Assembly (NCBI GenBank): GCA_021324155.1 | Contig: JAJPJQ010000047.1 | Span: 1 to 49,248 of the forward strand | DNA from: Pseudomonadota bacterium | Lineage (GTDB): Bacteria; Desulfobacterota; Binatia; UBA9968 | DNA: 49,248 bases | Direction: 5' to 3' | Part shown: positions 4,342 to 5,204 of the stretch, piece by piece | Position numbering within the stretch: position 1 is the first letter of the stretch | How the letters are laid out: each line of letters begins with the position of its first letter | Position numbers and translations under genes: made by a program | Notes under the pieces: generated by a model | Database searches by the model: none | What the model was told of the DNA's origin: nothing | Seen by the model: only the letters and a program-made list of their open reading frames with translations

Positions 4342-4833
4342 TCACGGCACGGGTGGCGTCGGCGTGGGTGGTCCGTACTTGCTGTACGTCGCGTCGATGG
4401 TTTGCCGCATCTCCTTTAGCGTCTTACCTTCGTCGATCATCTTCATCACGTCACGCGTGATGCCGATGCAGATGTCTCAAGCGAGACTCATGCGGTCGAA
4501 GCTGAGATTCCCGGGCTTGGAATCCGGTTTCAAGTAGCAGGAAGCATTGCTCGTGTGGCCTTGTTCACCGCATCCGCAGTAGCAAGGAATGTAGCGGAGC
4601 GTGTCTTGGTTCACGATGGCGAAGCGGTAAGCCTCGCGCACGTTCGCCGGCGCGCGCAGAATATCGGGCGCGAGAACTGACTCAGGCGCGAGCTTATACT
4701 TGCGAGGTTTTTCGGCGCCGCGAGCGGCGGGTAAAGCTCCGGCAGCGCCGAGCGCCACGAGCGCAAAGGCGCGGACGAGAAATATGCGTCGTGTATGAGG
4801 TGCCGCCGGAAGCGAGAAATCGCTACTGAACAT
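4342..4833 (-). CDS. PCYCGC-family exported protein, candidate selenoprotein (in-frame UGA at codon 119)
   Basis: A conventional reading gives 118 residues ending at the UGA at 4477-4479. It has a twin-arginine-like N-terminus (TRRIFLVRAFALVALGAAG), a lipid-free signal segment, and then the family motif IPCYCGCGEQGHTSNASCY at about 83-101. PCYCGC proteins (Pfam PF13798, best known as Bacillus lipoproteins) continue with a late CxxC and a helix ending in a Pro/Thr tail. Here the frame after the UGA continues 44 codons without interruption: DICIGITRDVMKMIDEG, then KTLKEMRQTIDATYSKYG, then PPTPTPPVP. That is the expected family tail, and the UGA falls on the first Cys of CxxC, giving U-x-x-C. 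GC3 stays high after the UGA. A SECIS-like hairpin lies just downstream. The gene overlaps the SHOCT gene by 11 bases. The alternative is a pseudogene with a Cys-to-stop mutation. The family's function is unknown; a thiol/selenol redox role is inference. Confidence 0.75.
4438..4468 (-). promoter_or_regulatory. Candidate bacterial SECIS hairpin downstream of the UGA
   Basis: On the minus strand, 9 nt after the UGA, an outer 4-bp stem (catc/gatg) leads through a 2x2 internal loop to a perfect 7-bp stem (catcacg/cgtgatg). The apical loop is CGUGA, starting 21 nt after the UGA. Known bacterial SECIS elements place a small apical loop, with a G among its first two bases, about 16-37 nt after the UGA. 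This hairpin meets those rules. It is also coding sequence, so its presence could be chance. Confidence 0.55.
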
Positions 4834-5104
4834 CTTTTTTCATGCGCTCGAAATCCTCTTGGCTGATCTCGCCTTTGGCGTAGCGCTTCTTGAGGATATC
4901 GAGCGCCGTATCGTTCTGTTCGGTCTTGTGCGCGCGCATCATGGCATTACATTGGTGCATCATGTTCATCATGCCCATCATACCGCCCATGCCGTCGCCG
5001 TGATGCTGTCCCATCATGCCCTGCATGGGAGAACTCTCCTGTTGCGCCACGGCGGCTGCGGACAGACCGAATATTAACAGTCCAATTAATAGAACTACCT
5101 TCAT
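4823..5104 (-). CDS. Met/His-rich exported protein with C-terminal SHOCT domain
   Basis: A 93-residue protein from ATG 5104, which has AGGAGGT 6 bases upstream and begins a signal peptide (MKVVLLIGLLIFGLSAAAVA). An upstream in-frame ATG at 5161 is less likely. The mature N-terminus is packed with Met and His (MQGMMGQHHGDGMGGMMGM, then MNMMHQCNAMM), a pattern seen in copper-handling periplasmic proteins. The C-terminus is a SHOCT motif (LDILKKRYAKGEISQEDFE), a short helical oligomerisation or C-terminal module. Its stop lies inside the start of the PCYCGC gene (11-base overlap), which implies coupled translation. Copper or other soft-metal binding is inferred from composition. Confidence 0.8.
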   Translation of the reverse strand: MKVVLLIGLLIFGLSAAAVAQQESSPMQGMMGQHHGDGMGGMMGMMNMMHQCNAMMRAHKTEQNDTALDILKKRYAKGEISQEDFERMKKDVQ

Positions 5105-5204
5105 CGGGATACCTCCTGGCCTTTTCCCACTACTAGATTTTACCACGATGCCCAAGGGCATACAGCCGCGCGAACGGATCGCGCGCAGTCTTCATCATAA
5201 AACC

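Follow-up and report, generated by a model that had tools for sequence, protein, structure and literature searches.

The minus strand of the window, the 49,248-nucleotide stretch of DNA analyzed here, encodes a protein of the PCYCGC family (PF13798) in which an in-frame UGA is very probably read as selenocysteine (Sec); judged from sequence comparison, the probability that this gene encodes a selenoprotein is about 0.88. The Sec reading is adopted because four lines of evidence agree: the exchange of UGA and Cys codons at one alignment column, selection on the codons past the UGA, a hairpin just downstream, and the Sec machinery encoded in the genome. The features of the locus are:

4342..4833, minus strand: candidate selenoprotein gene of the long-form PCYCGC type (PF13798), 163 residues with U119, terminal UGA at 4342-4344
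4477..4479, minus strand: in-frame UGA, residue 119, aligned with the first Cys in the family CxxC, putatively read as selenocysteine (relatives compared)
4468..4479, minus strand: U-D-I-C motif, residues 119-122 (translation and alignment)
4444..4462, minus strand: SECIS-like hairpin CAUCACG-CGUGA-CGUGAUG, loop start 24 nt past the first base of the UGA
4570..4584, minus strand: C-Y-C-G-C motif, residues 84-88 (translation and alignment)
4345..4371, minus strand: PPTPTPPVP (residues 155-163), a conserved Pro/Thr tail encoded past the UGA (alignment)
4714..4833, minus strand: N-terminal region with an RR-x-F-L (twin-arginine-like) motif, a pattern match only; the window copy is without a lipobox pattern
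4823..5161, minus strand: Met/His-rich SHOCT-domain protein, whose gene shares 11 nt with the start of the PCYCGC gene

The initial annotation had described a frame of 118 codons ending at a UGA and continuing for 44 further codons, with a family-like C-terminal part and a high GC3 that persists beyond the interruption, and the sequence agrees with it on each of these points. The UGA at 4477-4479 is the only interruption of the frame, and GC3 is 0.66 before it and 0.82 after it. The PF13798 match spans the UGA, running from residue 61 to 160 (E 6.9e-25, 88.2 bits, cut-off 25) and over profile positions 50-151 of 153, and a DNA-level profile search of the genome returned the same match, flagged as having one TGA inside. 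Both the PF13798 motif and the downstream Cys are present (PCYCGC at residues 83-88, H93, C99, U119, C122). A crude filter flagged four other frames in the window that continue through a UGA (at 1385, 2964 and 30448 on the plus strand and 40622 on the minus strand); these are probably adjacent genes or shadow frames.

PF13798 matches with a TGA inside were found at 33 of 79 places in the 145 genomes around the window's own (window included), at 28 of 114 places in 199 genomes around Evansella sp. AB-P1, and at 9 of 30 places in 201 genomes around a Chloroflexota MAG. All 28 and all 9 of the latter two sets have the TGA at the Cys column, whereas not all of the 33 do; L039, for example, is a Cys form whose TGA is the gene end. 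We examined 67 of the 114 Evansella-centered places (30 loci, 36 further ones and L074), including all 28 with TGA, 30 of the 79 places around the window's genome, and all 30 Chloroflexota-centered places, three of which were dropped. Together these gave 40 distinct UGA long-form genes, of which 28 come from Evansella and relatives, 9 from the Chloroflexota MAG and relatives, and 3 from the window's lineage; to judge from the center genomes, the first set would be Bacillota and the second Chloroflexota. The two nearest relatives of the window gene, L023 and L024 (L064 and L065 denote these two places as well), both have UGA and come from MAGs deposited as Deltaproteobacteria, which by our guess belong in Binatota. 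Three PF13798-matching paralogs in Evansella relatives (L187, L188, L189) lack PCYCGC and keep a CxxC.

As the initial annotation had stated, a Cys occupies the UGA column in other family members. Among 123 distinct relatives (133 rows before removal of 10 duplicates), the codon at this column is TGA in 52, TGC in 46 and TGT in 25. Membership in this set required a motif of CxCxC, His, Cys and (U/C)xxC uninterrupted by TAA or TAG, so that both the absence of TAA and TAG at the UGA column and the invariance of the motif residues are by construction. Six loci without the motif were also left out, one partly masked (L161), two short fragments (L163 and L164) and the three paralogs without PCYCGC. 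By architecture, the distinct long forms comprise 40 UGA and 58 Cys genes and the short forms 12 UGA and 13 Cys genes. On a quick tree (105 columns) the Sec/Cys label changes at least 10 times, 7 of them among long forms, with only 2 changes forced by well-supported branches; in the same tree the window gene clusters with L023 and L024 (SH-aLRT 99) and next with the Chloroflexota forms (84).

Pairwise comparison of the 44 codons past the UGA in the window gene, L023 and L024 gave differences at codon positions 1/2/3 of 4/5/20, 5/4/24 and 1/3/19, and NG86 dN/dS values of 0.06-0.11, with dS above 1 and hence near saturation. By this sequence measure the 44 codons are under purifying selection.

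The SECIS-like hairpin noted in the initial annotation is present, correctly placed and covarying across species, although the single-sequence shuffle test is weak. Counting from the first base of the UGA, a five-pair stem whose loop begins at 24 or 25 nt occurs in all 40 long-form UGA genes and in 2 of the 58 long-form Cys genes. With looser limits (at least 5 pairs, loop start 20-30), the figures are 40 of 40 and 16 of 58. Two-sided stem changes were seen across the long UGA genes (e.g., G-C in 13 and C-G in 13 at one pair, C-G in 14 and A-T in 12 at another). For one loop type all 26 genes form the inner five pairs, and for the other all 22 form the inner four; outer pairs are less frequent. 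Synonymous shuffling of single sequences, scored by energy, gave 0.017 for the window gene and 0.04-0.34 for other UGA genes, and some Cys genes outperformed UGA genes, two of them (L032 and L041) with values lower still. Three Cys forms (L137, L162 and L025) retain a SECIS-like stem at the equivalent place, possibly after a recent Sec-to-Cys change that left a relic hairpin. L137 and L162 are the two Cys exceptions in the strict count; they adjoin a UGA group in the quick tree, and their hairpins could be relics.

A search for the sel genes, proposed as a check in the initial annotation, showed that the window's genome encodes selA (603 bits), selB (412 bits), selD (392 bits) and a tRNA-Sec (selC, 74.8 bits, anticodon tca). 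Its SelD (L018, G000:C16:68287-69216) has an in-frame UGA of its own, in A-A-G-U-A-A-K, and is a Sec-type SelD. Among named genomes, SelB scored over the cut-off in four of the six that carry a UGA long form and in two of the five that carry a Cys form. It was not found over the cut-off in the L064 and L070 genomes among those six, for which mis-binned or missing contigs are a possible but unproved explanation. The L070 genome, a 2.1-Mb MAG, has only a weak C-terminal SelB-like stretch (25.8 bits), and the selA search returned only a 19-bit stretch. The L023/L064 UGA long form lies on a 5.8-kb contig (G011:C109) of a genome that is 96% complete and has neither selA nor selB over the cut-off, possibly a mis-binned contig or an orphan selenoprotein gene. 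SelB presence was also considered as a discriminator between Sec and Cys forms and fails as such, because selB is over the cut-off in 117 of the 145 genomes around the window's own.

Three features expected of a bacterial selenoprotein are found together here: a UGA at a Cys column, a stem-loop a fixed short distance downstream, and selA, selB, selC and selD in the genome. None of the three outcomes that the initial annotation had named as speaking against it (no sel genes, no relatives with UGA at this column, homologs that all end there) was encountered. The UGA might still be an ordinary nonsense mutation or a sequencing error that leaves a truncated pseudogene, since the frame formally ends at 118 codons and the genome is a draft of 53 contigs. 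We regard this as highly improbable, as the UGA stands at the identical column in 52 of the 123 distinct relatives, and purifying selection past it, the covarying hairpin and the full Sec machinery all argue against decay or error. Ordinary readthrough, in which a full-length product carries Trp, Cys or another residue and no selenium, would fit the fact that the exchange partner is Cys, a residue that near-cognate reading could in principle supply. It leaves unexplained that UGA genes retain the hairpin and Cys genes almost always lack it, that SelA, SelB, SelD and tRNA-Sec are encoded, and that UGA also serves as the terminal stop of the same gene, and we give it very little credence. Under the preferred Sec reading, SelB with Sec-tRNA(Sec) would decode the UGA at 4477-4479, helped by the hairpin.

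The initial annotation had further proposed an exported redox or metal-binding protein. Signs of export were found: pattern matching detected a lipobox-like pattern in 37 of 40 long UGA proteins and an RR-x-hydrophobic motif in 11 of 40, the window protein having only the latter, and we infer that it is exported. The copper/thiol role is drawn from neighbors and residues. Upstream of the Met/His-rich SHOCT gene in the window lie genes for an ABC-2 permease, an HlyD-type protein and a TetR regulator, and the SHOCT and PCYCGC genes appear to belong to the same operon. Within 5.5 kb of the window gene, the Met-rich SHOCT query matched only itself by tblastn, and the other 11 query proteins were not found. 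The same distance was searched around 68 long-form loci (39 UGA and 29 Cys, some cut by contig ends), with counts that include the queries' own loci (two for CopA, single loci for some other queries). A CopA-like ATPase (alignment of at least 250 aa) was matched at 12 loci (7 of 39 UGA and 5 of 29 Cys), CcdA at 15 (12 of 39 UGA and 3 of 29 Cys; ten of these, all UGA, are one related group), TlpA-like proteins at 8 and SCO1 at 3. A small, unmatched control covering 151 kb at 46 loci, including 30 CcmH loci, gave no CopA, SCO1 or CcdA match and gave TlpA in 24, which is expected because these loci adjoin ccm genes. At L053, the PCYCGC gene has a Met-rich gene (4581-4865) upstream and, next on its downstream side, one for a P-type ATPase containing YHS and HMBD domains. 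A gene judged CopD-like by eye, without a Pfam match, adjoins L054, L055 and L056 (short OS_HP4-type UGA genes of the window's family) and lies near 3 of 5 short UGA loci. The Parageobacillus Cys lipoprotein, as presented in PMC13068155, adjoins an Fe3+ substrate-binding protein, not a copper gene.

The CopA, SCO1, CcdA/TlpA and Met-rich neighbors suggest that the long form performs exported copper/thiol redox work, a role that, given these neighbors and the conserved residues, we put forward as tentative and somewhat short of even odds. In an AlphaFold model (12-row alignment, C for U) the protein is a small helical domain with a mean pLDDT of 84.6 and residue 119 just before a helix, and the tail segment that the initial annotation had read as a helix is modeled as one. 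The product would present U119-D-I-C122 within this domain together with C84-x-C86-x-C88, H93 and C99, and may be an envelope protein that combines selenol-thiol redox chemistry with metal handling, connected to copper traffic. In this scheme the U-C pair would alternate between a reduced and a selenenyl-sulfide form and, together with the CxCxC, His and Cys residues, could reduce, hold or transfer Cu(I) or partner thiols; CcdA/TlpA-type proteins would be a likely electron source.

Two other functions compete with this proposal. The protein could buffer metal without any redox cycle, Sec serving simply as a soft ligand; CxCxC, His, Cys and (U/C)xxC make a dense ligand set, and CopA, CDF and Met-rich neighbors would suit it. 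CcdA, TlpA and redoxin neighbors point the other way, as does the general observation that Sec in bacteria occurs mostly at redox sites, and we consider a pure buffer rather unlikely. Alternatively, it could be a CcmH-like thiol oxidoreductase of cytochrome c maturation and not a copper-handling protein, which CcdA/TlpA neighbors would fit. Foldseek and VIA place the periplasmic domain of CcmH (2hl7; E 1.3, Z 5.1, 74 residues, rmsd 3.2) first among matches to the model, followed by 2kw0 (Z 4.0), although a Z of 5 is within the range of unrelated helical folds. In hhalign, comparison with a CcmH profile (16 of 30 loci) gave probabilities of 61-81%, and none of 150 column shuffles scored as high for each of three profiles, a control that is lenient because shuffles lose helical patterning. 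A PDB sequence search with the 12-row alignment profile returned nothing better than E 0.42, and in Pfam scans up to E 10 none of the 12 aligned members matched PF03918. A distant tie between PCYCGC and CcmH is hinted at by fold and profile comparison and not by HMMER. The window's genome also has a CcmH of its own, and CopA and SCO1 neighbors occur in other genomes; we consider a role in cytochrome c maturation rather unlikely.

The initial annotation had supposed that selenocysteine was undescribed in this family, which does not hold: PCYCGC is a known selenoprotein family, and novelty at the family level fails. A table in PMC13188914 (2026) lists the "CYCXC family protein (hypothetical protein OS_HP4)" with PF13798, the motif UxxC and the entry 1, citing Zhang and Gladyshev (2007); a listing in PMC9312934 (2022) gives OS_HP4 as UxxC and no domain, and passages from PMC12013277 (the deep-Sep paper) name OS_HP3 and not the PCYCGC/OS_HP4 family. 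NCBIfam likewise holds a "CYCXC family (seleno)protein" model, NF041379. Against this model the window protein scores 55.1 bits, below the equivalog cut-off of 90, as do all 16 long forms tested (45.6-79.4 bits), whereas the short-form UGA relatives L028 and L046 in the window's taxonomic family score 124.6 and 119.8 bits. Long and short profiles align at 99.9% probability, and the two forms are therefore taken to be sisters. What may be new is this sister long form with a P-T-x-T-P tail below the OS_HP4 cut-off, UGA versions included; full-text searches of open-licence PMC papers, at the level of listings and of the passages cited here, gave no mention of the UGA long form.

As a widespread branch below the NF041379 cut-off whose copper/thiol context can be tested, the long form adds modestly to what is known. 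Because the long forms tested fall below the sole NCBI model that matched, those with UGA are probably stored as fragments of ~100-120 residues without half of the active motif. Possibly, though at somewhat less than even odds, long-form PCYCGC proteins are a separate, widespread and unlisted selenoprotein subfamily, cut at the UGA by current annotation, whose exported selenol-thiol chemistry is tied to copper export and copper-protein assembly. The copper/thiol neighbors make the function of the long form directly testable, and Evansella sp. AB-P1, a named Bacillota strain, offers a handle on this selenoprotein family.

Compared with known systems, the window protein shows a weak fold and profile likeness to CcmH (PF03918), a helix hairpin after a Cys pair, but the CcmH sequences examined have neither CxCxC nor the P-T-x-T-P tail, and there is no match at the Pfam level. 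With the Cys-type PCYCGC lipoproteins of Bacillota it shares the long architecture, the Cys set and the tail; these carry Cys where the window protein would have Sec and rarely form the hairpin (in 2 of 58 long Cys rows). For their main group, which takes up 78 of the 114 Evansella-centered places, PF13798 scores are 157-246 bits, compared with 88 for the window protein. With OS_HP4/CYCXC it has in common the superfamily and the UxxC motif (U119-D-I-C122), and it differs in its longer stretch between CYCGC and UxxC and in its P-T-x-T-P tail.
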